From assembly GCA_013817135.1 (NCBI GenBank), contig JACDDF010000012.1, positions 1 through 14,297 of the forward strand: a stretch of 14,297 nucleotides of DNA, written 5' to 3'. Positions within the stretch are counted from its first letter, which is position 1, and the number at the start of each line of letters is the position of its first letter. Of the stretch, positions 1 through 14,297 are shown piece after piece. Below the pieces are notes generated by a model. The model ran no database searches and was not told where the DNA came from. It saw only the letters and a list, made by a program, of their open reading frames with translations. The translations under genes were made by a program, and so were the position numbers. Source of the stretch: Nitrospirales bacterium (GTDB lineage Bacteria; Nitrospirota; Nitrospiria; Nitrospirales; UBA8639).

Positions 1-1594
1 TTTTCAGAACACGAGCCAGAGTCATGCCATCCATGCCCGGCATTTCCATATCGAGGATGGCCAGATCAAATGGTCGTCCCTTCTGTGCGGCGGATTGCAG
101 GAGGGCGAGACCTTTCGCCGGGGTGGAGGCCGTGCTGACTTCCATGCCCCAATCGGTGGCATAGTGGGTGATGAGGTCAAGGTTTGCGGAATGATCGTCC
201 ACGCAACACAGGCGCAATCCTTTCAGTGGGATATGACGATGAGAGATGGCCGGAGGATTCGGTTGTTTGGAAAATTCTGTGGTGAACCAAACCGTGCTGC
301 CCTTGGCGAGGTGACTATCCAAGCCGATGGTCCCGCCCATGAGCTCAACCAATTGTTTGCAGATGGCCAGTCCGAGACCGGTGCCTCCGAACCGTCGTGT
401 TGTCGAACTATCGGCTTGCGAAAACGGCTGGAATAATTGAGCGAGTTTTTCGACTGGAACGCCGATTCCCGTATCACGTACCTCAACTCTGATAGTGGCA
501 TGAGTCTCGGTTTCAATAAGGAGAGACACCTCCACCACGACCTCGCCTCTCTGAGTAAATTTAATCGCATTGCTGATGAGATTGAGTACTATTTGCCGGA
601 ATCGTCCAGGATCCCCTCGTAGAGCCGTGGGGACGTGGGCAGAGACAAGACCCAGGAGTTCGAGTTTTTTCCTGCCAGCCAGTTCCCCCAGCAATTCCAA
701 CGTGTCCTCAATGGCTATGCGGAGATCGAAATCAATCACTTCTAGATCAAGTTTGCCGGCCTCGATCTTTGAGAAATCCAGGATGTCATTAATGATCGTC
801 AGTAAGGCCTCACCTGAACTCCGAACTGTTTCCGCAAATTGCTTTTGTTGAGGAGTCAATGTGGTTTCTAGCAACAGGCCGGTCATGCCGATGATGCCAT
901 TCATCGGCGTGCGAATTTCATGGCTCATGGTTGCCAAAAATTCACTTTTGGCTTTGGTGGTCATCTCCGCTGCGTCTTTGGCTTTTCGTAAGTGGTCTTC
1001 GGCTGATTTTTGAAGGGTGATATCTCGCGTGAACGCGTAAAAAAATACGGTTCCGTCTTGCTCAATAGGAATGATGGTCAGTTCGAGGGGAAATTCCCTG
1101 CCATCACGATGGAGTGCGGAAATTTCGGTTCGTTGATTCAGGACTTTACCGATTCTGGTGCTCATATATCGCTTGAGGCCTTGCTGGTGGGCTTCTCGAT
1201 ACTGAAGGGGAATAATCATCTCGCCCAGTTGTTTCCCGAGAATGTCTTCCTTTGTCCACCCAAACAACCTCGCGGCTTGTGGATTCCAGGCGATGACCTG
1301 ACCGTCTGCATTCATGCCGATAATGCCATCGAGGCTGTGTGCGATAATGTTTTGGGTCTGATCCTCCATGCCTTTGATGCGGCGTTCACTGGTCTGGCGA
1401 AGGTTTTCGTAGAGCTGTTGCATTTCTTGGGAAGACAGCGCCAGGGATCGTTCCAAGAGCTCCCGGCCCTGGTCAGCTTCTGTGTAGGCTTGGCTGACCC
1501 GTTCCCATAGGTGGGTCCAGACTCCAGCTGGAGGGGGCTGAGTGGGGTCGATGAGCCCCAGCCGTTTGAGTTGACGTTTCAACAGTGGATGCAT
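1..1594 (-). CDS. Hybrid sensor histidine kinase (PAS-HisKA-HATPase-REC), 3' end outside window
   Basis: The frame is open from an ATG at 1594 to the left edge: 531 codons with no stop, so the C-terminus is missing. I see no membrane segment, so it is probably cytoplasmic. Residues 1-75 are a helical N-terminus beginning [14 protein letters not shown], a segment I recall from signalling proteins encoded beside FIST genes. A PAS domain follows at about 77-195 ([19 protein letters not shown], ending FTRDIT). HisKA has the H-box [15 protein letters not shown] with phosphoacceptor His225. HATPase_c has the N-box ([10 protein letters not shown], about 338-347), G1 DTGIGV (374-379) and G2 GTGLGLAI (404-411). 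A receiver starts near 459, with acidic pair Asp466-Asp467 and phosphoacceptor Asp515 in [14 protein letters not shown], so it looks active. GGAGG at 1606-1610, inside the end of the FIST gene, is its ribosome site. It lies 6 bases after that gene, so the two are likely co-transcribed. A second receiver or an HPt domain may lie beyond the edge. The family call is firm; the signal and output are unknown. Confidence 0.95.
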
Positions 1595-1600
1595 GAACCG

Positions 1601-2734
1601 TTATTCCTCCGAAATGGTGGTGATCGTCATGGTTTGATTATGAAGATTGCATGGCCCATTGGCATAGGGAGAGAGTTCCCCATACGAATAAAACCCGATT
1701 TGTTGCATGCCGGGAGGAAAGATCTCCAGTGTCGCTTCGATTTCTTCTTCCGCTCGCTCTCCAAGGATTAATCGACGACCGACGCAGGTGATCGCAATGG
1801 CTAAATTGTTGCCGGCATCGTGGATATTGGCCAGAAGAGCGGCTTGTGACGCGCCATCAATGAGACGGTCGAAGTTGGCGCGCATGAGTTGTGTCATAGA
1901 ATCTTGTGGGATGTCGCCGGCGAAGGTCATGGATTGATGGGTTTCGTCGACTCCGAGAATGGTGCGAACTAAATAATCTTCTCCAGCCACAGTGGATTTG
2001 ATGGCGAGCGGGAATAAGAGTGCGGTCGCGGGAAGCCCTGTTGCACGGTCGCCTAAATATTGCTTATAGAGTTCCAGCGCAGGCTTCCCATCGAGTTCGT
2101 ATAAAATATTTCCGACAGATTTGGTGACACGTCGTTCAGGCCCGAAAAAATCCCATCCACCTTTCGATCCATGTCCAAATCGGATATGGTCCCCGAAAAA
2201 ACCAACGGCGGAGATGACGCCTTCACGGGGTGTGCCGTCCTGAATGACCCATGTGTGTTGAAATCGGGATCCATCGCCCGCTAACCCGCCAGTGACCACG
2301 ACCGATTCCGGCAGGTGGGAATTGATGCCTCGTACGAGCTCACTTCCATTAACCTTCAACCCGTCCGAGAGGACCAGAATTCCTGACAGATCGGGACGCA
2401 GAAGCTCTTTGGTCAATTCCTGTCCAACGTGAAATGATTGTGACGGGTCGGCGATGGAGGAGGTGATTGGGCGCACAGTGGTCCACTCGAATTGCAGGAC
2501 GCCTCCGACAATACTGTCGTCCTTGATCTCATTACCAAATACCTCGCCTGAGGTCGAGCATCCAATGATGGGTGTACCGGTAAAGGTCTGGCAGAGGTCC
2601 TGAAGGCGTTCCGGGGCATTCAAAAACCCTGATCCTCCAAAGAGGATGACCAATGATTTTTGTGGATCGTCGACAAAGTCGGGCCGGGTGACTGATGGGC
2701 GAGAATTGTCGATATGAAATGTTTGGAGTTTCAT
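1601..2734 (-). CDS. FIST domain (FIST_N + FIST_C) sensory protein
   Basis: A 377-residue protein with no signal peptide or membrane segment. The N-terminal half has the FIST_N pattern: hydrophobic strand VILFGGSGF, then GTPIIGCSTSGEVFG (about 53-67). The C-terminal half ends with the FIST_C signature GFYSYGELSPY (347-357), then CNLHNQTMTITTISEE. FIST proteins are predicted cytoplasmic small-ligand sensors, with amino acids proposed as ligands, and often occur with histidine kinases or diguanylate cyclases. The gene directly downstream here is a hybrid kinase, so I infer that this protein senses a ligand for it or scaffolds it. I chose the ATG at 2734 because AAGGAAGG precedes it; an upstream in-frame TTG at 2752 would add six residues but has no clear ribosome site. 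It is separated from the pilus genes by 257 bases containing a possible promoter. The ligand cannot be read from sequence. Confidence 0.93.
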   Translation of the reverse strand: MKLQTFHIDNSRPSVTRPDFVDDPQKSLVILFGGSGFLNAPERLQDLCQTFTGTPIIGCSTSGEVFGNEIKDDSIVGGVLQFEWTTVRPITSSIADPSQSFHVGQELTKELLRPDLSGILVLSDGLKVNGSELVRGINSHLPESVVVTGGLAGDGSRFQHTWVIQDGTPREGVISAVGFFGDHIRFGHGSKGGWDFFGPERRVTKSVGNILYELDGKPALELYKQYLGDRATGLPATALLFPLAIKSTVAGEDYLVRTILGVDETHQSMTFAGDIPQDSMTQLMRANFDRLIDGASQAALLANIHDAGNNLAIAITCVGRRLILGERAEEEIEATLEIFPPGMQQIGFYSYGELSPYANGPCNLHNQTMTITTISEE

Positions 2735-2791
2735 GAAACCTTCCTTGGTCAAAATTGTGGCCTGAATGTTCTCTCCTGTCGGGTAGGTTGC

Positions 2792-2824
2792 AGAATACGA
2801 CCCATCGGTCTAATTGATTAGGCC
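2792..2824 (-). promoter_or_regulatory. Candidate promoter/operator for the FIST-kinase pair
   Basis: A near-palindrome lies at 2807-2824: arms GGTCTAAT and ATTAGGCC, one mismatch, 2-base centre. Just downstream on the minus strand, TATTCT (2792-2797) resembles a -10 box about 58 bases before the FIST ATG, which would put the dyad over the -35 position. No good -35 hexamer is visible, which could suit an activator-dependent promoter. This is pattern reading only. Confidence 0.25.
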
Positions 2825-2971
2825 TTTCCAACACGCCCCTGCTCATGGGTGTTTTCCTCAAATGTCGGCGTTTTCAAACATCAACTGTAGAAATGTGAAA
2901 AGACAGGGAGAATTAATACAGAGAACCCGGGTGTGCGGATGAATACGCCATAAAGGTTTCCACAACAATGA

Positions 2972-2986
2972 AGCCCCTCCTGGGCT
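2972..2986 (-). terminator. Weak hairpin after the TPR gene
   Basis: Six bases after the TAA of the TPR gene, the minus strand reads AGCCC-AGGAG-GGGCT, a 5-bp GC-rich stem with a 5-base loop, followed by the T-rich but interrupted stretch TCATTGTTGT. It sits where the pilus operon would be expected to end. The short stem and broken T tract make it weak at best, so read-through into the FIST gene is possible. The rest of 2735-2991 holds no gene I can support. Confidence 0.35.
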
Positions 2987-2991
2987 GACGG

Positions 2992-4407
2992 TTATTGTTC
3001 TCCCCGAAGACTTACATGGGTGCCTGTTGTGGAGGCCGGCGTTTTGGTTATGGACGTCAAGCTGGCAAACAATTTTTTCCTGATAGAAAAGAACTCCGGC
3101 TGGCCTTCTGTTAATTGTAAGAATCTACCAAAATATTGATTCGCTAACCGATTATTCCCCATTCGCTCATAAGCATAGCCCATATTCAAATGGATATGGG
3201 GCAGATCCGGTTGGAGTGCCTCGGCTTGACGAAGTTCATGCACTGCAAGTTGGAAACTTCCTTGTTGTTGCGCCACCAGCGCTCGTTGAATCCATAATTG
3301 TGGGACTTTGTCGTTGCGTGCGAGACCGCTCAAGAAATACTGATCGGCCTGCTCAAGCTGGCCTGCCCCCAAATATGCGGTTCCCATCCAAAACCATGGT
3401 TCCCAAGTGACGGGGGGATCATGGAACAGTGGGGAGAGCATAGCCTGAGCTTCTTCGTATTTCCCGGTTTGAATGAGTTCTTGGGCATGATGAAGCCAAT
3501 TGACCGGAGATCGTTGAGTCCGACCTGTGACCTGGGCATTCTCCCGAGACCCCTCAATTTTCAGAGAACGGGCTGTCGTGCTAACAGGGACAGAAGTCTC
3601 GTCAATCACAAGAGCCGTGGTGGTTGTGAGCTCATCCAGATTGATTTTTTCTTCTTCTAAATCGGCTTCTAACGTTAGGAGTGTGCCAGTCTCATTGACG
3701 GAGGCGGATTCGACAAGGTCCGAATCAGGTTGTTCTGTTTGGACAATGACCGTGACAGGAGAACTGGTCGCAATTTTCTTCGGAACGGTGCTCTGGTGTT
3801 TCGGAGATAGGTCTGTTGTTTTGGGTGGCGTGGAGAGGGACGTGGCGACGGTTTTCTGCTGAGGGTAATCGAATGTGGGGGTTATTAATTGTGGTGCAGG
3901 TGCGGAGGAGGCTGGAGTATTTCCCACGGATGATACGGGGGGAGTAGGTTCGAAAGCCAATGGGGAGGATGGTTCCATTGAAGACCCCTCTTGAGATGTG
4001 GGCGATTCCTCATCCGCTTCCTGGGCAGCTGATACTGAAAGATTCTCAACAGGGTCAGCAGTTGGTATCTGCGCGGCATCAGAAGATAGCGGCTCGACAG
4101 GCGGAGTCTCCACAAGCGAAGAGGAGTTCGAAAGAGCCACACGCTGACTGGGAAAAGGGGAGGCTTCCGTTGGCATGCCGAAATCCAGATGTAAGCCGAT
4201 CCAGTAGGTACCCAGACCTAGACTGCTTAATCCGATCGCCATGCCGATCCCGACCAACCAAACCTTTAATGGAGACGGTCGGTGGTGCCAACCCAGGTCT
4301 CTTCTCACTCTAGCTGGAAGGACAAGAGGTGTCTGATGAGGCGTCTCAGTCATTTCACTTTTGGTCTGGGTCTGAAGTCGTTGGAGGGTGTCTGCGATGA
4401 TACTCAT
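2992..4407 (-). CDS. MshN-like membrane-anchored TPR protein
   Basis: A 471-residue protein with three parts. A short cytoplasmic N-terminus begins MSIIADTLQRLQ, resembling the starts of MshN/GspB-type proteins. One membrane segment lies at about 48-72 (VWLVGIGMAIGLSSLGLG). A long linker, about 75-300, is rich in Pro, Ser, Thr and Glu and looks disordered. The C-terminus, about 302-440, has roughly four tetratricopeptide repeats (for example KYEEAQAMLSPLF, QLEQADQYFLSGLARN, IHLNMGYAYERMGNNRLANQY). TPRs should therefore be periplasmic, reached through a flexible stalk. It follows the ExeA/MshM-type ATPase by 25 bases, the position of mshN in the Vibrio msh locus, so a role in pilus or secretin assembly is inferred. 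The ATG at 4407 lacks a strong ribosome site, so translation may be coupled to the upstream gene. Orthology to MshN rests on architecture and position rather than on a motif. Confidence 0.85.
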   Translation of the reverse strand: MSIIADTLQRLQTQTKSEMTETPHQTPLVLPARVRRDLGWHHRPSPLKVWLVGIGMAIGLSSLGLGTYWIGLHLDFGMPTEASPFPSQRVALSNSSSLVETPPVEPLSSDAAQIPTADPVENLSVSAAQEADEESPTSQEGSSMEPSSPLAFEPTPPVSSVGNTPASSAPAPQLITPTFDYPQQKTVATSLSTPPKTTDLSPKHQSTVPKKIATSSPVTVIVQTEQPDSDLVESASVNETGTLLTLEADLEEEKINLDELTTTTALVIDETSVPVSTTARSLKIEGSRENAQVTGRTQRSPVNWLHHAQELIQTGKYEEAQAMLSPLFHDPPVTWEPWFWMGTAYLGAGQLEQADQYFLSGLARNDKVPQLWIQRALVAQQQGSFQLAVHELRQAEALQPDLPHIHLNMGYAYERMGNNRLANQYFGRFLQLTEGQPEFFSIRKKLFASLTSITKTPASTTGTHVSLRGEQ

Positions 4408-4432
4408 GGTCTGTTGAATTTCTGTGATGCTC

Positions 4433-5260
4433 TCACTTCGGGAGGAATTCTTTGGTGGCGCGCAAGATCATCAGGGGAGTCACAATATATCGGCCCTGGG
4501 CATAAGCCGCTAACAGGGCACGGTCGCACAGTTGATTGATGCGGCGTGGGACTCCACCACTCCAAGCATAAATGAGCCAGAGGACTCCTACGCCAAGTTG
4601 AAACCGGTGTCGGGCATCGGCAATATGCAGGCGATGTCGAATGTACGCACGAGTCTCCTTCCAGGTAAATGATTCAAGGCGATAGCGGACGCTAATCCGT
4701 TGCCGCAATGGTCGAAAGGCTCGAGTCGCCAGCTTTTGTTCCAACTCCGGTTGTCCAACCAGCAGGAGACACATCAACTTGTCTTTTTCGGTATCAAGGT
4801 TTGAGAGAAGTCGAAGACCTTCGAGGACTTTTCCACTGAGCCGGTGGGCTTCGTCAACCAACACAACGACCCGTTCTCCTTCCCCGGCCAGACGGAGCAA
4901 CAGCTTAGGCAATTCCCGTTGTAAGGCCCCAAGTGACTGATCCTCAGGCAGTGTCCCGGTTAAATCTTCGTAAATGGATGTGAGCAAATCGGCATAGGAC
5001 TGATCCGGATTCATGAGGTAAGCGAATCGGACCCCGGTCGGGGGATGGCGAAGCAGGTGCCGGCACAACAGGGTTTTGCCGAGACCCACTTCCCCCGTCA
5101 GCATAGTGAGACCGCCACTGGCAATGCCAAATCTGAGATGGTTCAGCGCTTCCAAATGATGGCTGCCGGGAAAAAAGAAGTCGGTATCGGGTGTGAGCCG
5201 AAACGGCGGTTCTGTAAATCCCAACTCTTGGTAACAGAGGCTAAGGTCGAGTGTCGTCAT
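4433..5260 (-). CDS. mshM: MshM/ExeA-type AAA ATPase
   Basis: A 275-residue soluble ATPase of the ExeA/GspA/MshM group. Near the N-terminus is the family hallmark YQELGFTEPPFRLTPDTDFFF (its Pro-Phe-x-Leu-Thr-Pro-Asp core at about 19-25), then HHLEALNHLRFGI. Walker A is GEVGLGKT (56-63); Walker B is VVVLVDEAHRL with Asp136-Glu137; a sensor Asn is at about 154 (LLSNLDTE); and LLLVGQPELEQKL precedes an Arg-rich segment (183-188) with likely Arg-finger residues. The C-terminal winged-helix-like part contains SGGVPRRINQLCDRALL. In known systems, ExeA with ExeB drives assembly or placement of the secretin through the cell wall; here no separate peptidoglycan-binding domain is visible, as in MshM. 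Its ATG overlaps the secretin stop (ATGA, 5257-5260), which fits translational coupling and a job with that secretin. Confidence 0.92.
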   Translation of the reverse strand: MTTLDLSLCYQELGFTEPPFRLTPDTDFFFPGSHHLEALNHLRFGIASGGLTMLTGEVGLGKTLLCRHLLRHPPTGVRFAYLMNPDQSYADLLTSIYEDLTGTLPEDQSLGALQRELPKLLLRLAGEGERVVVLVDEAHRLSGKVLEGLRLLSNLDTEKDKLMCLLLVGQPELEQKLATRAFRPLRQRISVRYRLESFTWKETRAYIRHRLHIADARHRFQLGVGVLWLIYAWSGGVPRRINQLCDRALLAAYAQGRYIVTPLMILRATKEFLPK

Positions 5261-6864
5261 GATGTAGACCGCACAATTTTTGGAGATAAAAAGATGACCA
5301 ATTCACTTTTTGTTTTGACAGTGTACGTCCCTTTAAACAGGCGGCCTAGGTAAGGAATGTCCCCCAGTATAGGAACTTTACGCTCAGTCTCCGAGGATTC
5401 TTCTTGGATGAGTCCCCCGATGATTACCATTTCCCCATCTTTGAGACGGACGAGGGCGGAAGATTGCTTGATATCCAAGACGGGCGCATTGGCGGTCTCT
5501 TGAGGGGAATCTACGATTTCACGGAGGCGAGAAATAATGGGGGTCACATCCAACATGATCCAGCCGTCTTCAGAAATTTGTGGTGTGACGGAAAGGACCA
5601 AGCCTACCGTGACGGATCGCACTTGCTCAGTGACAATATTGCCACTCCCGGCAGTTCCTTGAGCAACGGTTGAGGTGAAAAATGGTTGATCGGTGGCCAC
5701 TTTGATCAAGGCCGGTTGATTATTCATGGTGACCACCCGAGGTTGGGACACCACGCGAATTTCTCCTTGTTCTGCAAGAGCTTTCAGGACGCCATCGAAG
5801 CTTCCGTCTGCAAAGGAAATCGTGGTCGTGGCGGCCTTGGGGATAAATCCACCGAAGGGTGCCAAAATAATATTGGCCAATTCGAAATTACCCGACGTGC
5901 CATAAAAATTGATCTTGGTCCAATCAATCCCGAGGCTGTAACTGTCATTCAAATTCACTTCGTAGATTTTAACCTCAATTTCCACTTGTCGGTACAGGGC
6001 CTGGTGCACGGTTTTGAGAAAGTGGTCGATTTCATCGACTCGTTGATACCAATCGGTCACCTGAATCGTCCCTGAAAGTCGGTTGATGACCAATCGCCCA
6101 TCCTTCGACATGAGGGTCTGAATTTGTTTTTCCAGTTCTTCCCAAAATTTAATTTCATCCTGCTGGTTGACCGTGATTTGTCCGGTGTCTTGGGAGGAGG
6201 ACCCTGATCCTCCACCGGAACCGGAATTCATCTTCGCCCGGTTCTCTCCGGTTCCGCCCCGTACAAGACGGATGTAATCGATATTCAACATGATGGTTTT
6301 AAATTGCCTGACTTGAATCAGGTTCTTGTGGTGTTCCCAATAATAGCCATGGGCTTCCAAAATGGCCGACATCGCCTGTTCCAGGGGAAGATCATGAAAG
6401 GCTACGGTGATGGTGCCGGTAATTTCTGGCCCGGCCACAATATTTAAATGGTTGCTACGTGCAAACAACGCCAACGCGTCGATGACCGGCAGGTCTTGTG
6501 CACGAAAAGAATACAAGGGCCCCAAAGAAGTGGCAGGTGGCTGTGTCGGAGGTTTGGGGAGATCGCTGGTGAGCCACATGCGATCCTCTAGCGAAAATGT
6601 TGCCTGAGGGTTGTTCCCGGGTACTGCCGCCAAATCTAACCTCAGGGAAACGCTCTGTGAGGTGTGTGTGGTGATGGGATCTGCGCTTGGCCGGTCTGCA
6701 TCTTGATTGGCCATTGTGCACCCCCATAAACTGAAAATGCCGAATAGAACCAGGCTTTGAAAAACTCCTATGCTACATGTGATAGATGCTCCGTTTGCCG
6801 GTCGGCTGGAGAATGCGGAGATCTGAGGAGTCATTATTATGTTGTGTCGCATGGCGTCTTTCAT
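5257..6864 (-). CDS. mshL: MshL-type outer-membrane secretin
   Basis: A 535-residue secretin forming the outer-membrane ring. After a rather long N-region comes a hydrophobic segment ending LFGIFSLWGC, a lipobox-like site with Cys49; Trp at -2 is unusual for a lipobox. An STN/secretin N0-like domain lies at about 118-187 (YSFRAQDLPVIDALALFARS, then AILEAHGYYWE). A Gly/Ser-rich patch (213-224) precedes another N-domain (about 233-290). The secretin core runs from about 365 to the end: GEIRVVSQPRVVTMNNQPA, SVTVGLVLSVTPQI, and the signature VPILGDIPYLGRLF (497-510), closing with ELVIFLSPKIV. The size and the order MshK-MshL-MshM support the MSHA assignment over PilQ or GspD. The start is uncertain: ATG 6864 lies 16 bases after the previous stop without a good ribosome site, and in-frame ATGs at 6852 and 6834 are alternatives. 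Confidence 0.95.
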   Translation of the reverse strand: MKDAMRHNIIMTPQISAFSSRPANGASITCSIGVFQSLVLFGIFSLWGCTMANQDADRPSADPITTHTSQSVSLRLDLAAVPGNNPQATFSLEDRMWLTSDLPKPPTQPPATSLGPLYSFRAQDLPVIDALALFARSNHLNIVAGPEITGTITVAFHDLPLEQAMSAILEAHGYYWEHHKNLIQVRQFKTIMLNIDYIRLVRGGTGENRAKMNSGSGGGSGSSSQDTGQITVNQQDEIKFWEELEKQIQTLMSKDGRLVINRLSGTIQVTDWYQRVDEIDHFLKTVHQALYRQVEIEVKIYEVNLNDSYSLGIDWTKINFYGTSGNFELANIILAPFGGFIPKAATTTISFADGSFDGVLKALAEQGEIRVVSQPRVVTMNNQPALIKVATDQPFFTSTVAQGTAGSGNIVTEQVRSVTVGLVLSVTPQISEDGWIMLDVTPIISRLREIVDSPQETANAPVLDIKQSSALVRLKDGEMVIIGGLIQEESSETERKVPILGDIPYLGRLFKGTYTVKTKSELVIFLSPKIVRSTS

Positions 6865-6880
6865 AGAGTGGCGAGGAAAG

Positions 6881-7399
6881 TTATGACGTCGCTTTCTCGG
6901 GAAATGTTAACCATTGGGTTCTGCCCTGATGTCTTAACAACACCCCTTTAGGCTGAATGGACATGACCTGATGTCCGTTAATCATTTCTCCTTCATACAC
7001 CACGGTCCGGTTGATCACCGCGCTCCGTTGCTCACCTTCGACGGCAATGGCTTTAAGGGTGAACTCATTCTTAGTAAGTGGGGGTTCGCCTGTTTGGACC
7101 CCTGTCATCGACGGTGAGTCCGATGGAGCCTGAGAGGCGACCACAATGGGGGCAAAAGGATCACGACTGGAGTGTTCGATCCATAGACCGGCCTCATCGT
7201 CATGGGGTCGCCCCGCAGAAGTAGGGGGAGGGAGAGTTGGAGCAGAAAGCAGTCGATTCAGCCCCACCGAGATGATGCCGGGTGCATCGGATGCCGTATC
7301 CACGATATTCGCATACACCGCGAATCCTGCCAGAAGGCACAGACCAGTCGCGACCATGGGGTTTTTTAAAGCTCGACGGAATCGTTGGTTTTCATCCAT
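6881..7399 (-). CDS. MshK/PilP/GspC-like inner-membrane connector
   Basis: A 172-residue bitopic protein. One membrane segment lies at about 13-33 (NPMVATGLCLLAGFAVYANI), then a Pro-rich linker, then SRDPFAP (78-84) and a compact C-terminal domain (about 113-166: FTLKAIAVEGEQRSAVIN, VVYEGEMINGHQVMSIQPKG, VLLRHQGRTQWL). This layout matches the homology region of GspC and the PilP/MshK domain, which contact the periplasmic N-domains of the secretin. It lies directly before the secretin gene, as mshK does before mshL. Its start at 7399 overlaps the 3' end of the PilO/MshJ-like gene by 34 bases, read in another frame, which suggests tight translational coupling. The sequence is divergent, so the call rests on architecture plus position; I am confident of the role and less so of the exact family. 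Confidence 0.85.
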   Translation of the reverse strand: MDENQRFRRALKNPMVATGLCLLAGFAVYANIVDTASDAPGIISVGLNRLLSAPTLPPPTSAGRPHDDEAGLWIEHSSRDPFAPIVVASQAPSDSPSMTGVQTGEPPLTKNEFTLKAIAVEGEQRSAVINRTVVYEGEMINGHQVMSIQPKGVLLRHQGRTQWLTFPEKATS

Positions 7400-7953
7400 A
7401 CCGACAATCCAATGGTTAAGTGAGTTGCTTGTTGACCATCACCCATGACCGTCACATTCTGAATGTCGACTCTTGGTCCGGATCGGGTGAGGGCCTTCAT
7501 GAACTGAAGATAGGAACGATACGCATTGGGGGTTCCTTGCGAGTTGACTTGAATTTCTAACGGAACCCATGTCACCCCCTGGATTGGAGAGGCGGTGCGG
7601 TCTGTGTTCAGAATGCGATACTGGATGAGGAGATCCCTCTGTTTACCGTCGGCTTGCAGCCCTTGCGCCCATTGCGCCAAATGGGTGAAGTTGTGGAGTA
7701 AGCGTTGCTCAGCCTGTTGAAGATGAGCCTCAAGCGCATCCGGACGAGCCTGAAGATATTGAGAGCGAAGCTCCGCCACCTGCTGTTCGAAGCCGATCGT
7801 ATCTTGGGTCAGAGATTGGCGCTTTTGAATGGTGAAAAGTTTATCCAGGCTCACCCAGCCCACAATGGATAACGTTCCAATCAGAAGCACCACGAGTCCC
7901 GTGCTTTTGAGCTGTTGGGGATTGGGCCACTCATGGGGGCGGAGCCACTTCAT
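7366..7953 (-). CDS. MshJ/PilO-like inner-membrane protein
   Basis: A 195-residue protein with one membrane segment at about 17-37 (STGLVVLLIGTLSIVGWVSL), a helical, probably coiled-coil stretch at about 45-90 (FEQQVAELRSQYLQ, LEAHLQQAEQRLL), and a C-terminal alpha/beta domain (about 115-188: YRILNTDRTASPIQGVTWVP, ALTRSGPRVDIQNVTVMG). This is the PilO/GspM/MshJ plan, in which the periplasmic ferredoxin-like domain pairs with a PilN-type partner in the alignment complex linking platform to secretin. Its ATG overlaps the stop of the PilM-PilN-like gene (ATGA, 7950-7953), with AAGGGA upstream. It is the second of an I-J-K-L run. The function is inferred from layout and position; sequence alone would be a weak match. 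Confidence 0.87.
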   Translation of the reverse strand: MKWLRPHEWPNPQQLKSTGLVVLLIGTLSIVGWVSLDKLFTIQKRQSLTQDTIGFEQQVAELRSQYLQARPDALEAHLQQAEQRLLHNFTHLAQWAQGLQADGKQRDLLIQYRILNTDRTASPIQGVTWVPLEIQVNSQGTPNAYRSYLQFMKALTRSGPRVDIQNVTVMGDGQQATHLTIGLSVWMKTNDSVEL

Positions 7954-9431
7954 GACATGGTTCCCTTCAGGGTGAATCGATAGAGTGGCCGTTCATTGGT
8001 TGAGGTGGCGGTTTGGGACAAGAGTTGGTGTCGCCAATCCTCATGAAGGGACACATGATATGGTCCATCCGCCAGCTGTTGAACGAATTGATCCACCACA
8101 AACAAGGTGGCCGCAAGATTGGTAGAAGTGCTGCCGTCCAGCTCCACGTTCCATCCGTCCTGGGTTCGTTCGACAAAGGCTTTGCCCAAAATGACCTGGG
8201 TGGGGATGATGGATCCCAGATAGCTGAGGAACGGGCCTTCTAATTCCGGAGTGGTGGTTTCGCTCACGGATTGAGCCCATTGCCGTTTGGTGTCTAACAA
8301 CATGAGCCGACTTTCCCATTGCGCCTGATCCTGCTGGATGGCGGTGACTTGGTCGGTCATGGTCTGCATCGCTGTTTGATGTCTGGCCAAATAACCTTCG
8401 ATGACGCCGGTTGTTCCGACTCCGATAAGAATAAATGCTCCAAGCATGGCGACGAAAGCTTTGGTGAGGGTATTCCGTAGCGGGGCTTGGAGAACCTGCG
8501 TGGGCGTGAAATTGCTTGGCAGATTGACCGGAAGCATCGCACCGACCCACAGCCAGTAATTCCAGTCGGGCTTGATGGGGAATGGCACAAGGGGAGTGTT
8601 CACGTGAGGCTGTATTTCACCCGCCGTCAATCGTTCTTCATCATCCCAAAACCAGATGCAGGGGAACTTTAAATTTGTCTGTTGCGTGATGAACATAATC
8701 GTTCGATTGACCTCGGTTCCGACCCGCTCCCCAAGTGGAACCCAGTCTTGAGCGGGGAACAGCTGTCGGGTCCAGATCGGGGTTCCATCATCCTTTCCCG
8801 CGACAATAATGATTTTGCCTTCGAGCATGGTTATCAGGATCGAACCTTTTCCCGGTTCAACGGGCAATGTGCTGAGTTGACTCTCGGACAGAGAAGAAAG
8901 AGGAGCCAACTGACGAAGAGATAAGCCCAACTCTTGGCAGATGTGCACGATCGTATCGATATATTCTTGTGGCCATATATCAAGGTGAACATGTAATTTT
9001 CCTCGAGCTTCCAGGCCAATCCGATATCGCCATGCCGCCGGTCCTTCCCAAGGTTTTTCTTGTTGGACCTTTCGTTCAAGAAAGGGAAGGAGGTCGGTGA
9101 TGAGCATCGGAGGGATTTGAATGGTTCGCGTAGCAAGTCGCGGATGGTCAACGAGCATGGCGAGGTGCGTGCCGGGAAATTGGGTCTGGTGAATCGCTTC
9201 TTCCAATGCGTCCTGAAGGGTGTCTAGGGACACGAGCTGGCCCGGTCGTTCCCAACTCTGTCCAATGGTATTTTTCACGATCGATAAGGCTTTCAATCGA
9301 CCATTTGAAAGGCTGACGCTTAAAATCGTCTGTTTTTTCTTCAACAGAGTCTTCTGGAGGTTCGGAGGGATCTCCAGCATAGGTGTCTGAACGTCTGAAA
9401 ATGATGTGGGTGATTGAAGAGTGTCGATCAT
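7950..9431 (-). CDS. MshI / GspL-like protein (PilM-like domain joined to PilN-like domain)
   Basis: A 493-residue protein. Residues about 35-290 form a cytoplasmic PilM/GspL-type actin-like domain (ILSVSLSNGRLKALSIVKN, QIPPMLITDLLPFLERKV, GSILITMLEGKIIIVAGKDD). The usual acidic phosphate-binding motif of true PilM is not obvious, so ATP binding is doubtful. A stretch resembling the PilN cytoplasmic peptide (PVNLPSNFTP, 301-310) precedes one membrane segment (about 324-345), a coiled coil (346-385), and a periplasmic domain ending RPLYRFTLKG. MshI and GspL have this fused plan, while classical type IV pilus loci split it into pilM and pilN. I start at ATG 9431, 4 bases after the upstream pilin stop; the longer open frame to 9782 would overlap the pilin. 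The start has only a weak ribosome site, so translation probably continues from the pilin gene. Confidence 0.87.
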   Translation of the reverse strand: MIDTLQSPTSFSDVQTPMLEIPPNLQKTLLKKKQTILSVSLSNGRLKALSIVKNTIGQSWERPGQLVSLDTLQDALEEAIHQTQFPGTHLAMLVDHPRLATRTIQIPPMLITDLLPFLERKVQQEKPWEGPAAWRYRIGLEARGKLHVHLDIWPQEYIDTIVHICQELGLSLRQLAPLSSLSESQLSTLPVEPGKGSILITMLEGKIIIVAGKDDGTPIWTRQLFPAQDWVPLGERVGTEVNRTIMFITQQTNLKFPCIWFWDDEERLTAGEIQPHVNTPLVPFPIKPDWNYWLWVGAMLPVNLPSNFTPTQVLQAPLRNTLTKAFVAMLGAFILIGVGTTGVIEGYLARHQTAMQTMTDQVTAIQQDQAQWESRLMLLDTKRQWAQSVSETTTPELEGPFLSYLGSIIPTQVILGKAFVERTQDGWNVELDGSTSTNLAATLFVVDQFVQQLADGPYHVSLHEDWRHQLLSQTATSTNERPLYRFTLKGTMS

Positions 9432-9435
9432 CGTG

Positions 9436-10356
9436 TTAGGGGCTATAGCAACCGCTACTGTTGATTCGCCATTTGGATCCTGCCGCGCAGTCGGGGTCGA
9501 ATTGAAATCCGGCTTCGGTGGACAGGGTGAATTGTGTTTCTGGAACACTAAATGTATCCGCTTCGTCCAAACTAATCGCGGTTCCAGAGAGGTGATAGCG
9601 AATATGCGGCACAAGCGTGCCGCCACCGGATGCCGTCGGGCTCCCATCGATCGCGTAGCTGCCTCCGGCGCCATTGGCAGAAAGGCTGAGGAGATGAAAC
9701 AAATGGCCAACGTGCCCGCGGTGAATTTTAAGATCCGGCGTTCCGGTTTCATCGGTGCTCCACCAGGTCTCAAAATTGGCATCCGTAGTTATGGAGGGAT
9801 TCACATTTTGTGCGAGATGGGTAATGACCATAAACCGCGCATCTGCCAAGGCCGTCGTTGAGAGACCTGTGGAGTTGGTGAATCCACTGATGTTGGGTTG
9901 CACGAAATAATAGCGGAGGAATCCATTGGGATTCGTGGTGAGTTGCCCTAAAGCCATTGCAACATAATCCGGACTCAGCGCTGTAAGTGTGGCCGGAAAG
10001 GAATGGGTTTGCCGCACGTAGAGTTCAATTCCTCGGGCAATTGTCGCCAATTGCCCATCCTCCGAATCCCGCCTCACGGAAGCCAGTTGATTGATCACAT
10101 TTGGTGCGATGAAGCTGGCAAGAATGGCAATAATCGCCAGGACGCCAATCATTTCTACAAGCGTAAATCCGCTTGTGGATAGACATCGTGAAGCGTCAAT
10201 TAATGCGGATATCCTCCGGCCAATTATTTTAACTGTGTTCCGGTTCTTGCATTGAGTGGACCGGAGGGTTGTGCCCGGACGCCAGTCTGTCTCGAATGAG
10301 ATCGAGGCCGTATGGAGTCCTGTGGCCTGAGTAAGAAAGTCATTGCGTCTTGTCAT
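9436..10356 (-). CDS. Type IV prepilin-like protein with Glu5 (probable major pilin of this locus)
   Basis: The prepilin site is STSG/FTLVEMIGVLAIIAILASF: Gly63, Phe64 at +1, Glu68 at +5, followed by the hydrophobic N-terminal helix. The mature part is about 243 residues with a globular domain holding GFLRYYFVQP, FETWWSTDE, KIHRGHVGHLF, and a C-terminal loop closed by two cysteines 12 residues apart (FDPDC...SSGC). It is clearly a paralogue of the neighbouring gene at 10638-11441. Glu5 and the position at the head of the MshI-L genes suggest it is the filament subunit; abundance cannot be judged. The ATG at 10356 has AGGATCGG upstream but gives a 63-residue leader, far longer than the usual 5-30, and no in-frame ATG, GTG or TTG lies between it and the cleavage site. 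An ATT start near 10200 (GGAGG 12 bases upstream) or a one-base frameshift near 10172 would give a normal short leader. Confidence 0.88.
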   Translation of the reverse strand: MTRRNDFLTQATGLHTASISFETDWRPGTTLRSTQCKNRNTVKIIGRRISALIDASRCLSTSGFTLVEMIGVLAIIAILASFIAPNVINQLASVRRDSEDGQLATIARGIELYVRQTHSFPATLTALSPDYVAMALGQLTTNPNGFLRYYFVQPNISGFTNSTGLSTTALADARFMVITHLAQNVNPSITTDANFETWWSTDETGTPDLKIHRGHVGHLFHLLSLSANGAGGSYAIDGSPTASGGGTLVPHIRYHLSGTAISLDEADTFSVPETQFTLSTEAGFQFDPDCAAGSKWRINSSGCYSP

Positions 10357-10472
10357 GAATCCGATCCTGTCTTGGTCCTTCTTAGAGAGGCTTCTGCCTG
10401 GGGGGGTGTGTGAGTATTCTTCCCTCTATCGGGCATATCCCGCCTGGTAGTACACCAACCCTTCTTTCGGTT

Positions 10473-10510
10473 TTTGAAAAGCCAATCTTAATTTTCTTAA
10501 ACTTTTCAAA
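10473..10510. repeat. 9-bp perfect inverted repeat upstream of the Glu5 pilin
   Basis: TTTGAAAAG at 10473-10481 and CTTTTCAAA at 10502-10510 are perfect inverted copies around a 20-base AT-rich spacer that itself holds CTTAA twice around TTTT. It lies about 117-154 bases before the pilin ATG at 10356. It could be a paired protein-binding site or a long-loop hairpin; there is no T-run placing it as a terminator for a known gene. Confidence 0.5.
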
Positions 10511-10600
10511 TGGTTATGGGAGGTTTGCCAGAATCACAGGGGGCAGGAAGTTCACGCGGAAGTCAGGTTATGGAGGTGGGAAATGCAGTCATTCTTTTCA

Positions 10601-10624
10601 CGCTCCTGGAGCGAGAAGGTCTCG
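10601..10624 (-). repeat. Two abutting short hairpins after the Glu5-less pilin gene
   Basis: CGCTC-CTG-GAGCG (10601-10613) and CGAGA-AGG-TCTCG (10612-10624) are each 5-bp stems with 3-base loops, sharing two bases. They start 13 bases after the stop codon of the upstream gene on the minus strand. No T tract follows on either strand, so an intrinsic terminator is unlikely; an RNA processing or 3'-end protecting structure is possible. Confidence 0.35.
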
Positions 10625-10637
10625 ACGATGTTTTGGC

Positions 10638-11441
10638 TTAACAGGGCGGAGACAGAGGATTCCATCGTTTGTTGACGACGCACAAGGGATCGAACCAATA
10701 GCCGGTATTGGTGGTGAGGGCGAACTGCACGTCAGGGGTGTTGTAGCTATCGTCCTCGTCCAAACCGATTTCGGTGCCTATAAGATGAAAGCGGCCATGC
10801 GTGGGAAGAAGGGCGCCGTTGGAATGGGTTGGCTGGTGGTCAATAGAAAAACTTCCCCCATTTCCTTTGGGAATAAGGCTCACGGTATAAAAAAGATGGC
10901 TAATCGTCCCACGATGAATGGTGAGGGAAGGAGTCGTGCTTTCATTCGTGTTCCACCAGGTTTCAAAGGTGGCGGGAGTGGTGATGGCCGGGGCGGCATC
11001 TTGTGAGAGATTGGAAATGAGAAGAAAACGGGCATTGATGATTTCTGCGCCAGTCAGTCCAGTCGAGTTTTGGAATCCGGCTATCGAGGGGTGCACTGCA
11101 TAATAGCGGGGAAATCCTCGGGCATTTCGCGTCATTTGAGCTTGAGGCAATGGCACATTGTCAGGGGAGAGGATGAGTAACGAAGGGGGAAACGCGTTGT
11201 TTTGTCGAAGATACGAGATAATCCCCTTGGCGATTAACTGAAGGTCATGGGACTCACGGTCTTCACTATGCCGATCCCAGACTCTAACCATAGAGGGCGA
11301 CACGACAGTCAGCCCTATAGATATCATGGCCAACAAGCCGATGAGGACAATGAGGGTCATTCCGGCTTCCGGATCAAAGACAACCTGGTGGCGGGTGTGG
11401 GAACGTGAGGAGACGCCAGGGGAGTCCATGAGGCTTGTCAA
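10638..11441 (-). CDS. Prepilin-like protein lacking Glu5 (paralogue of the adjacent pilin)
   Basis: A 267-residue protein with a prepilin-like start: a 27-residue leader ending DPEAG, then MTLIVLIGLLAMISIGLTVV. Position +1 is Met28 and position +5 is Val32, not the usual Glu. In type II secretion, the pseudopilin without Glu5 is GspK, found at the filament tip; this protein shows no other GspK likeness. Its ectodomain instead matches the neighbouring pilin across its length: GFPRYYAVHPSIAGFQNSTGL, FETWWNTNE, LTIHRGTISHLF, and a C-terminal FDPLC...PPC loop with the same 12-residue spacing. I infer a tip, initiator or minor subunit of the same filament. The TTG at 11441 overlaps the GspF stop (TTGA) and has GGTGGA 6 bases upstream; ATG 11429, four codons in, has no ribosome site but is an alternative. 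Confidence 0.87.
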   Translation of the reverse strand: MTSLMDSPGVSSRSHTRHQVVFDPEAGMTLIVLIGLLAMISIGLTVVSPSMVRVWDRHSEDRESHDLQLIAKGIISYLRQNNAFPPSLLILSPDNVPLPQAQMTRNARGFPRYYAVHPSIAGFQNSTGLTGAEIINARFLLISNLSQDAAPAITTPATFETWWNTNESTTPSLTIHRGTISHLFYTVSLIPKGNGGSFSIDHQPTHSNGALLPTHGRFHLIGTEIGLDEDDSYNTPDVQFALTTNTGYWFDPLCVVNKRWNPLSPPC

Positions 11442-12649
11442 TGGATTCCACCCATTAAACTCATCATGGGCATAAAGAGGGCTAGCGCGACGATTCCCAC
11501 GATCCCGATTAATACAAGGGTGATCACGGGCTCGAGAATGCCAAAGACTTTTTTGATTCGTCGCGGAATTTCCCGATTATAATAATTTGCCACGTTCATC
11601 AGTGTGTTGGGTAAGGTCCCGGTGGCTTCTCCGACCGAGATCATTTGAATCACCATTGGCGGAAACACCGGATGACGGCTTAAGGATTCATTGATGGTGG
11701 AGCCTTCGGACACAGCGCGTTGCGTGTCCTGTAGCGCCCGTTCCATCACGGAATTGCCAACCAGGCCCTGGCACAGTTGCAGGCTTTGCAGAACAGGAAT
11801 GCCTGCCCGATACAAGACGGCAAAGTTTTGAACGAATTTTGATATGGTGAGCATCCGGATGAGTTCGCCCAGCACGGGGAGTTGTAAGATCATGCGGTCC
11901 CGCCAGTGAACAAATCCTGGCAGATATTTTCGGCCCACGACCCACACCATTGGGCCGAGCAGGAGGAATGCACTCCAGAGCCACCAGCTTCCGACGAAGA
12001 ATTCACTGAGGGTGATGACGATAATGGTGATAGTCGGGAGGGGCACATGCAGGCCTTCCAAGATAGGGACAAACCGTGGAATGACGAAGGTAAAGAGCAA
12101 GACCAGCAATCCCATTACGGCAACGATGACAATGCTCGGATAAATGGTGGCTTGACGCACATCTCCCCGGATTTGATCCAGCCAATCCAGATATCGTTCT
12201 AATTCTTTGAAGGTATCGGTCAAGGTGCCACTGTCTTCTCCGGCATGAACCAGATTGGTGATTTGCGGAGGGAAAGTTCTGGGGTGTTGCTTCATGGCAT
12301 CATGTAGGGTGTTTCCGGCTTCGACTTGTTGAAAGATCGCCTGTAAGGTCGCACGCAAATGAAGGTTGGGTGTCTCTATGGACAAACTTTTTAAGGCCTG
12401 CGTAAGGGGAATGCCGGCCTCAAGGAGTGTAAACATGTGTGTGGAGAATTCCATGAGATCGCGGGGCTTGACTCTCCCTCTTTTTTGAGTGGTCCGTGCG
12501 AGAGATTTCGGTTTGGATTCCAATGTGCGCACGAGCCAGAGCCCCAAGTCCTGGAGCTGGCGTTCCAGGTGGAAAAGGTCCGGCGCCGTCATCTCTCCCT
12601 CAACCGGCCTCCCATTGGCGTCGATGGCGCGGTACTGAAAATTAGCCAC
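11438..12649 (-). CDS. gspF: GspF/PilC/MshG-type inner-membrane platform protein
   Basis: A 403-residue polytopic protein with two T2SSF domains. It opens with FQYRAIDANGRPVEGEM, typical of the family. Domain 1 (about 66-190) has FSTHMFTLLEAGIPLTQALK and HAGEDSGTLTDTFKELERYL, followed by a membrane segment (IVIVAVMGLLVLLFTFVIP). A second hydrophobic region follows at about 210-240. Domain 2 (about 268-390) repeats the pattern with FVQNFAVLYRAGIPVLQSLQ and ISVGEATGTLPNTLMNVANY, and ends with a last membrane segment. The length is usual for the family. It is the platform on which the assembly ATPase acts. The GTG start at 12649 has GAGGG 8 bases upstream and overlaps the ATPase stop by 8 bases; the downstream pilin start overlaps its own stop. 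MshG is the likely counterpart by context. Confidence 0.96.
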   Translation of the reverse strand: MANFQYRAIDANGRPVEGEMTAPDLFHLERQLQDLGLWLVRTLESKPKSLARTTQKRGRVKPRDLMEFSTHMFTLLEAGIPLTQALKSLSIETPNLHLRATLQAIFQQVEAGNTLHDAMKQHPRTFPPQITNLVHAGEDSGTLTDTFKELERYLDWLDQIRGDVRQATIYPSIVIVAVMGLLVLLFTFVIPRFVPILEGLHVPLPTITIIVITLSEFFVGSWWLWSAFLLLGPMVWVVGRKYLPGFVHWRDRMILQLPVLGELIRMLTISKFVQNFAVLYRAGIPVLQSLQLCQGLVGNSVMERALQDTQRAVSEGSTINESLSRHPVFPPMVIQMISVGEATGTLPNTLMNVANYYNREIPRRIKKVFGILEPVITLVLIGIVGIVALALFMPMMSLMGGIH

Positions 12650-14297
12650 CGGTGACCCTCAACACTTCTTCGATGGTGGTGATTCCCTGAAGGGCTTTCA
12701 TGAGTCCGTCATCAAACATCGTTGGCATCCCATCTCTCCGGATGATGGCCCTAATACCTGCCATATCCGGTCCGTGCACGATAGGCCCATGGAGTTCCTC
12801 CGAAATCTGGATAATTTCGTAAATACCTTCTCGGCCTTTATACCCTGTCTGGCCACATGCGTGGCATCCTTTTCCTGTCCAGAGACTAGGGAGAACACCT
12901 TCCGGTAATTCTACTCGAAGATCGGCAAGGATGGTGGAGGCATCTGTCCGTTCAACCTTACATTCGGGACAAATACACCGAACGAGTCGTTGTCCAATAA
13001 TGGCGGTCAAGGCGGAGGCGAGGAGGAAGGCTTCCACACCCATGTCGATTAGACGAGGGATGGCTCCCAGCGCATCGTTGGTGTGAAGTGTGGAAAAAAC
13101 CAAATGTCCGGTTAAGGCCGCGCGCATGGCCAGATCGGCCGTTTCCTGATCACGGATTTCCCCAACAAGTATGACGTCAGGATCTTGCCGAAGGAGGGCA
13201 CGAAGCCCGGCCGCAAAGGTCATGCCGATGTCTGGATTGACCTGCGTTTGGCGAATAAGAGGCATCTGATATTCGATCGGGTCTTCCAGCGTAAACACAC
13301 TTTTTTCTTTCGCATCGACATGGCGGAGAGCCGTATATAAGGTCGTGGTCTTTCCACTCCCTGTGGGACCCGTCACGAGGATAATGCCATGGGGACGTTG
13401 GATCAGGGTTTGGACGCGCGATTGGTCGTTGGGTGTAAACCCCAAGGCCAGAAATTCTAACTTCAAGGCCCCTTTATCTAGGATTCGAAGGACAATACTT
13501 TCTCCGAAATTCGTTGGAAGGGTTGACACACGAAGATCAATCCGGCGAGTGCCTAAGGTAAACGGGATACGGCCGTCCTGGGGAGTTCGTTTTTCTGTGA
13601 GATCAAGATTGGCCATGAGTTTAAACCGCGCGGTAATAGGCGCTTGAAGCGGTTTCGGAATGAGAATTTCTTGTGTGAGTATGCCGTCAATGCGCATTCT
13701 GACCCGTAAATAGTACTCATCCGGCTCGACATGGATGTCGGTCACCCGTGATTGAATGGCGGCGGTAATGAGTTGGTTGCACAAGCGAATCATCGGCGCC
13801 ACCCGGCTTCCGTCTTCCCCGAGATCGGAGATCCCTTTGACCATTAATTCATCAAGCAGTTGTTTGATGGATTCCCGGTGCGCATAGTGCCGCTCGATCG
13901 CTTCGATCAGTTCTTGGGCAGGGGCCGTGTGGGTGTGCACATTGAGCCCGATGCGACTTTCGATGGTATCCACCGCGACAATATTCAACGGATCTGCCAT
14001 GGCCAGGTTCAACACATTCCCCTGTTTGCTAAGAGGGAGGACTTGAAACTGGGTGGCGATGTCGTAGGGGATGAGATTGACAATTTCCGGTGGGATGAAA
14101 ATAGTGGAGAGGTCGACTAAGTCGGTTTGGGTGCCCTCGGCCAGATAATGGGCCAGGACTTTTTCGGTGATGAACCCCAGGCCAATGAGCGTTTGGCCGA
14201 GCATCACGCCTTTTCTCTTTGTCTCTCGGACCGCCAGATCCAATTGCTCTTGAGTGATCCAGCCGTCTTGAAGGAGAGACGTTCCGAGGAGAGGCCG
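12642..14297 (-). CDS. gspE: GspE/PilB/MshE-type assembly ATPase, 5' end outside window
   Basis: The frame is open from the right edge to a TAA at 12642: 551 visible codons, so only a short N-terminus is missing. A TTG at 14243 is not the start, since homology continues upstream (RPLLGTSLLQDGWITQEQLD). Visible residues 1-60 are a T2SSE/MshEN-like N-terminal domain with two related LG...L...G.IT repeats. The N2 domain contains ITAAIQSRVTDIHVEPDEYY. The ATPase core has Walker A GPTGSGKT (310-317), an Asp box around Glu338-Asp339 (TLEDPIEYQ), Walker B VILVGEIRD (375-383) and the His box LTGHLVFSTLHTND. The zinc tetracysteine motif is CPEC (443-446) and CHAC (478-481). All catalytic elements look intact. 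It should power pilin polymerisation. No PilT-type retraction partner is in the window. MshE is likely by context; the repeats' usual c-di-GMP residues appear altered. Confidence 0.96.
   Translation of the reverse strand, partial: RPLLGTSLLQDGWITQEQLDLAVRETKRKGVMLGQTLIGLGFITEKVLAHYLAEGTQTDLVDLSTIFIPPEIVNLIPYDIATQFQVLPLSKQGNVLNLAMADPLNIVAVDTIESRIGLNVHTHTAPAQELIEAIERHYAHRESIKQLLDELMVKGISDLGEDGSRVAPMIRLCNQLITAAIQSRVTDIHVEPDEYYLRVRMRIDGILTQEILIPKPLQAPITARFKLMANLDLTEKRTPQDGRIPFTLGTRRIDLRVSTLPTNFGESIVLRILDKGALKLEFLALGFTPNDQSRVQTLIQRPHGIILVTGPTGSGKTTTLYTALRHVDAKEKSVFTLEDPIEYQMPLIRQTQVNPDIGMTFAAGLRALLRQDPDVILVGEIRDQETADLAMRAALTGHLVFSTLHTNDALGAIPRLIDMGVEAFLLASALTAIIGQRLVRCICPECKVERTDASTILADLRVELPEGVLPSLWTGKGCHACGQTGYKGREGIYEIIQISEELHGPIVHGPDMAGIRAIIRRDGMPTMFDDGLMKALQGITTIEEVLRVTGG

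Follow-up and report, generated by a model that had tools for sequence, protein, structure and literature searches.

What can a type IV pilin still do when it lacks the glutamate at position 5 (Glu5) that its neighbouring paralogue retains? Two tandem pilin genes raise this question in a 14,297-nucleotide stretch of DNA from a Nitrospirales bacterium (assembly GCA_013817135.1, contig JACDDF010000012.1, positions 1 to 14,297; hereafter the window), for which the original prediction, made from the letters alone, had proposed that a duplication produced a dedicated tip or initiator subunit from the filament subunit itself. Our analysis suggests, with fairly good probability, that the upstream, Glu5-less copy is the tip or initiator subunit of an MSHA-like type IV filament.

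All the window genes discussed here lie on the minus strand. The upstream pilin gene (10638..11441; 267 amino acids from a TTG start, 240 of them in the mature protein, 11360-10641) has the cleavage site AG/MTLIVLIG (slash, cleavage), which places Met at +1 and Val at +5 (codon 11348-11346), while the downstream gene (9436..10356; 306 amino acids, 243 mature, 10167-9439) has SG/FTLVEMIG, with Phe at +1 and Glu at +5 (codon 10155-10153), confirming that Glu5 belongs to the downstream copy only. Both products have the Gly-1 prepilin site and an uninterrupted hydrophobic helix, and they align over 242 residues with 46% identity and no gap (E 3e-80 for that comparison), an alignment that contains all five ectodomain blocks quoted in the original prediction. 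Since paralogy spans helix and ectodomain gap-free, a swap of the N-terminal helix alone was rejected. The leader of the Glu5 copy, about 63 residues long with an uncertain start codon, is unusual and looks similar by eye in a neighbouring species (L086); a gap of about 280 bases precedes this copy, and a separate promoter there is possible.

Only the Glu5 copy reaches the cut-off of the Pfam N_methyl model (22.3 vs 21.2 bits). No Pfam family, T2SSK (PF03934) and PilX_N included, reaches E ≤ 1 with the Val5 copy, whose match to the GspG model is weak (E 0.089). A Foldseek search with a model of the Glu5 copy (mean predicted local distance difference test score 73.6) gave no match at E ≤ 0.001, an absence from which we draw no conclusion. 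The missing Pfam match would suit a Val5 copy that is a decaying, functionless duplicate, but we consider this most improbable: no full-length Glu5-less match contains an internal stop, the gene is present once in all 23 contiguous loci described below, and the ratio of nonsynonymous to synonymous substitution (dN/dS), obtained by simple Nei-Gojobori counting, is about 0.2, on which the pseudogene reading was rejected. Between the window and seven related loci, the Val5 copy has values of 0.17-0.30 and the Glu5 copy values of 0.09-0.22, indicating that the Val5 copy is under purifying selection.

The division at position 5 is kept in other genomes carrying the pair, which belong to marine Nitrospira and other Nitrospirales. 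Exactly one Glu5-less family member occurs in each of the 23 loci that are contiguous from GspF to the MshI position (the window included), accompanied by one Glu5 member in 17 and by two in 6; eight cut or broken loci (L035, L038, L041, L042, L050, L051, L056 and L058) were left uncounted. Loci in which both copies carry Glu5 had been named beforehand as evidence against the proposal, and the six loci with two Glu5 copies come near to this, but each also has one Glu5-less copy. Two draft genomes gave observations of another kind: in G004, two Glu5-less copies, Thr5 and Val5, lie on two contigs (L038 and L039) and may reflect a strain mixture, and in G015 the Glu5 copy (L035:1003-1915) is interrupted by a frameshift plus a TAG, through real decay or assembly error.

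As for distribution, 28 of the 48 genomes from the same family contain matches to the Val5 copy. The Glu5 copy has matches at E ≤ 0.001 in 155 of 196 genomes of an order-wide draw, its strong matches (E below 1e-50) being restricted to the same family and to G047, a genome from a different family; elsewhere in the draw the matches listed span about the first 90 residues, a few being longer. Among the 20 family genomes without a match to the pair, 19 retain an MshL-type secretin. In six of these 19 secretin loci (L087-L092) no GspE, GspF, third pilin (see below) or pair member was recognised nearby, the secretin being mostly accompanied by an AAA or TPR gene, so the secretin alone is uninformative on the pair.

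Residue identities at +5 follow the same division. Protein searches used the best 120 of 213 family proteins, and the +5 survey covered 86 database proteins, of which 75 had an N-terminus and 11 without one were dropped. The 70 proteins nearer the Val5 copy have Ala (45), Val (17), Thr (3), Ile (2), Gly (2) or Pro (1) at this position and never Glu; the five nearer the Glu5 copy have Glu in four cases and Val in one (P0081). An alignment of 247 family rows, limited to those with an N-terminus and at least 200 aligned residues, has Gly-1 in 246; the exception, P0200, was removed. The resulting 246 rows, in which loci and database proteins are mixed and some are identical (227 different), comprise 98 non-Glu5 and 148 Glu5 rows. 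Within residues 1-20, none of the 98 has a D, E, K, R, H, N or Q, and Glu5 is the sole such residue in 146 of the 148. A near-complete difference between the groups is also found at positions 159, 218, 226 and 231 (numbered on the Glu5 copy), which means that residue 5 is not the only site at which the two copies diverge.

Trees of the ectodomain recovered the two groups with position 5 playing no part, because the first 30 residues were excluded. In a maximum-likelihood tree of 85 rows chosen from the 247 (residues 31 onward), a single branch parts 40 Glu5 from 45 non-Glu5 rows (support 87/83; 85% of 200 bootstrap trees), and a FastTree of the 246 rows gave the same single split, with one change compared with a mean of 77 in shuffled labels and a local support of 93. 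The check proposed with the original prediction thus yielded one bipartition between Glu5 and Glu5-less rows. Support for the branch is good, though short of overwhelming, and the placing of long rows, L053 and L052 for example, is unsure. Judged from these sequences, the Glu5-less copy is an old, conserved paralogue of the Glu5 pilin, with a small or hydrophobic residue at +5 family-wide.

Why should the lack of Glu5 place a subunit at the tip? Published statements are given here as they stand in excerpts of the papers cited. These describe Glu5 as conserved in pilins generally (PMC10191384, PMC5207764), recognise Glu5-less pilins as type IV pilins (PMC7541494, PMC9934059) and take a Glu5-less pilin as the outermost or first subunit (PMC10191384, PMC9934059, PMC7541494, PMC5207764), the reason given being that Glu5 serves to neutralise the N-terminus of the next subunit up (PMC10191384, PMC9934059, PMC7541494). 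The premise that a pilin without Glu5 is the first or tip subunit is thereby backed as a general rule (PMC10191384, PMC9934059, PMC7541494, PMC5207764). A Glu5Val variant of TcpB still starts pili and gives no support to retraction, which its authors read as failure to enter the growing filament (PMC5207764), and by the same logic the Val5 copy could be first but not later. Without Glu5, the Val5 copy would leave the N-terminal amine of any subunit above it unneutralised and would thus be kept out of the filament body, serving as the first subunit; the Glu5 paralogue would dock onto it, either as the next-below adaptor or as the filament subunit, followed by other Glu5 pilins.

Known initiators resemble this arrangement in part. 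GspK/PilX-type tip pilins likewise lack Glu5 and are placed outermost (PMC10191384, PMC9934059, PMC7541494); unlike them, the Val5 copy has no T2SSK or PilX_N match and is a paralogue of the neighbouring Glu5 pilin over the whole pilin domain rather than a separate minor-pilin class. TcpB and CofB, initiators of type IVb pili, have a pilin domain resembling that of their partner pilin, as the Val5 copy does, and CofB (excerpt of PMC5207764) has additional C-terminal domains of which the last is a beta-sandwich, a feature shared with long Glu5-less relatives. According to the same excerpt both keep Glu5, which TcpB needs for retraction, whereas the copy described here is Glu5-less as a rule, like TcpB Glu5Val. 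PilB and PilC of Streptococcus sanguinis are described as pilins with a grafted adhesion or lectin-type module (excerpts of PMC8179133, PMC9934059), as in the long members of our family; there, however, PilC keeps Glu5 and the Glu5-less PilA is small and has no module, while long members here combine both traits and the window copy has no module.

Long C-terminal extensions are present in 44 of the 98 non-Glu5 rows, although rows cut at a contig end, such as L056, can look short. In the members examined, the extension is a beta-sandwich, CBM96 or LamG-like module, and a structure model of the long relative P0018 has it following the pilin domain. In such relatives, the Glu5-less copy may display the beta-sandwich or lectin-like module outside as a tip adhesin. 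The window copy has no extra domain (240 amino acids mature), probably through loss, and initiation or capping would be its remaining role. The idea of a switch, in which short forms would conceal the module after a stop or frameshift, was examined in six short-form loci and rejected: behind the stop of the short copy in L041 (10280-10760) there is a module-like remnant that is interrupted by stops and not confined to a single frame, apparently a product of decay, and the other five loci, the window among them, have no module-like sequence downstream.

These extensions bear on two further readings of the Glu5-less copy. It could be a pilin-like adhesin or regulator that undergoes processing but stays in the membrane and never becomes part of the filament, as the large extensions on several non-Glu5 copies would allow, and Glu5 loss is described as hindering pilin addition below others (excerpt of PMC5207764); we regard this as unlikely, given that the whole pilin domain is under purifying selection with one copy per operon conserved, and that known Glu5-less pilins are placed at the tip (excerpts of PMC7541494, PMC9934059). 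Alternatively, the copy could be inserted throughout the filament despite the missing Glu5, forming a mixed polymer. Its pilin domain resembles the Glu5 copy in size and sequence, but extensions as large as those in the 44 rows could hardly be accommodated all along a filament that has to pass the secretin, and Glu5 substitution in major pilins lowers or stops assembly (excerpt of PMC5207764), which makes such a polymer quite improbable in our view.

Which pilin forms the filament body is a separate matter, since relatives have a third pilin just upstream of GspE (HSQG/FTLVEMIG, 213 residues mature, 14-residue leader), whose counterpart in the window's own genome, an assembly of 645 contigs estimated to be 84.57% complete, lies near the end of contig C422 (L079). 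The third pilin is found in 27 of the 48 genomes, 25 of which have both it and a pair member. It may be an equal or better candidate for the major pilin than the Glu5 paralogue, as far as the genes can tell. We judge it evenly balanced whether the Glu5-less copy and the Glu5 paralogue are both minor pilins that form a two-part tip complex on a body made of the third pilin, in which case the Glu5-less copy would still be outermost but not derived from the filament subunit; this is a more exact form of the tip reading and is compatible with it. In its favour, the third pilin belongs to the same locus, has the short 14-residue leader and is well conserved, with a dN/dS of 0.06-0.14 over five loci. 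It is also multi-copy in some relatives, with as many as six matches in one genome (a fragment counting among the six in G102) and tandem copies in some loci, while the short Glu5 paralogue is single in each of the 23 contiguous loci. In the six loci with two Glu5 copies (L052, L054, L055, L057, L059, L060), the three family members are two Glu5 forms, one short and one long, and a long Ala5 form, and the third pilin has at least two copies upstream of GspE in five of the six and lies within the cluster in five. On the other side, the two Glu5 pilins have matches of about the same strength to the N-terminal part of the major-pilin models GspG and ComGC (GspG 5e-9 and 2e-8), and codon use marks neither as highly expressed: in Candidatus Nitrospira (Ca. 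N.) allomarina the codon adaptation values are 0.69 for the third pilin, 0.65 for the Glu5 copy, 0.62 for the Val5 copy and 0.80 for the ribosomal set, the three pilins all having values close to those of the remaining operon genes. A pair member without a third-pilin match occurs in three genomes (G002, G015, G019), and the third pilin alone in two (G026, G034), all but G026 being drafts less than 94% complete.

Several points weigh against the Glu5-less copy as tip subunit derived from its sibling. Its location at the tip is a prediction from sequence, and codon use fails to single out either Glu5 pilin as the major one. P0081 has Val5, yet its whole sequence is slightly nearer the Glu5 copy (249 vs 240 bits). 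No long extension is present in 54 of the 98 Glu5-less rows, and in 6 of the 23 loci the second, long Glu5 copy has an extension that looks related, by eye, to that of the Glu5-less copy, so that large extensions are not confined to the latter. The trees are unrooted, and under a midpoint root of the 85-row tree the Glu5 rows form an inner clade; a single loss rather than gain of Glu5 follows from taking Glu5 as ancestral, being conserved in pilins generally, and depends on that premise. Finally, a FimT/PilV/PilW/PilX-type set elsewhere in the genome may prime the filament in trans. In Ca. N. allomarina (L081) this set consists of four minor-type pilins, with PilX_N at 1.8e-6 and the PilV model at 9e-6, below cut-off, the FimT- and PilW-type members being named from weak matches and by eye, and the same four are recognised by eye in the window's own genome (L080). 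The claim that no GspH/I/J/K set is seen thus holds within the window but not for the genome, where this cluster lies on another contig; a genome-wide T2SSK search there gave one match (24.8 bits, cut-off 24.2), in a 722-amino-acid open reading frame far from pilin size. A putative prepilin peptidase, named by eye, stands beside the minor-pilin cluster.

What stands of the proposed duplication is the paralogy, the conserved split and a distinct role retained by the Glu5-less copy, as suggested by purifying selection and the extra modules in relatives. The Glu5 sibling need not be the filament subunit, because the third Glu5 pilin of the same locus may be the major pilin, and the unrooted trees are compatible with either direction of change.

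A second Glu5-less paralogue was observed within the Ca. N. allomarina genome. It is a GspG-like subunit with Phe at +5 (NG/VTYLFVM; L083:10165-10863, minus strand), sharing 27-28% local identity with two Glu5 pilins of the same cluster resembling a type II secretion system (T2SS). Among the best 120 of 200 homologues, 110 have an N-terminus, with Phe5 in 109, Leu5 in one and Glu in none.

Returning to the pair, we tentatively sketch a history about which we remain somewhat doubtful. One duplication would have made the tip or initiator pilin from the very subunit that it caps, and Glu5 would have been lost once before the family spread, fixing the polarity of the pair such that one member could only be first and the other only follow. 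The adhesive module would have come and gone later, uncoupling initiation from adhesion, and the same principle seemingly arose again in the Phe5 GspG-like subunit.

The surrounding genes indicate what kind of machinery the pair would serve. In order of transcription, the pilins follow an extension ATPase of GspE/MshE type with an MshEN domain (12642..14297, running off the window; PF00437 7.4e-130, PF05157 5e-18) and a platform protein of GspF/MshG type (11438..12649; PF00482 3.6e-57), and they precede genes in the MshI to MshN positions. By gene order, these are an MshI-position gene with no family hit, whose true start probably lies well inside the open reading frame (7950..9782), an MshJ-position gene with no informative family hit (7366..7953), an MshK-position gene whose C-terminal part is T2SSB-like (6881..7399; PF16537 5.4e-6, below cut-off), a secretin of MshL type (5257..6864; TIGR02519 239.7 bits, cut-off 250.2; PF00263 3.4e-45), an AAA ATPase in the MshM position (4433..5260; PF13401 7.5e-25) and a TPR protein in the MshN position (2992..4407). 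Because of the MshEN domain of the ATPase and the MshL-type secretin we call the locus MSHA-like; on this gene content it is not a certified MSH system. The two share the MshEN ATPase, GspF-type platform, MshL-type secretin and AAA and TPR genes, but here the MshL score is just under the cut-off, there is no recognised MshA, and the basic layout has three pilin genes. The order of genes also appears to differ from that of Vibrio MSHA. An excerpt of PMC6668835 gives mshA, mshE, mshG, mshL and mshM as mandatory for MSH systems; in the window the E and F/G types are clear, MshL is below cut-off, an AAA protein occupies the M position and no MshA is recognised. Adjoining the operon, positions 1-2752 hold what we take, by eye, to be a hybrid histidine kinase and a FIST-sensor-like protein; in L044 and L046, too, the operon is followed by counterparts of these two.

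Among the matches listed, the literature on Nitrospira pilins contained no description of this pair, and an excerpt of one Nitrospira paper mentions only a regulator of pilin genes (PMC5012046). Inferences on what Glu5 does have so far come from structures and mutants, TcpB Glu5Val among them, whereas here natural paralogues differ at this residue. The rule that a pilin without Glu5 is the first subunit can now be tested on a pair of closely related pilin domains, encoded next to each other in an operon whose basic layout has three pilin genes, and the organisms carrying the pair include at least one strain, Ca. Nitrospira neomarina DK, reported as an isolate in an excerpt of PMC10579370. The pair offers a possible route by which a sibling pilin, in place of the separate H/I/J/K classes, gives rise to a tip subunit, and it provides a candidate attachment factor for marine nitrite oxidisers.
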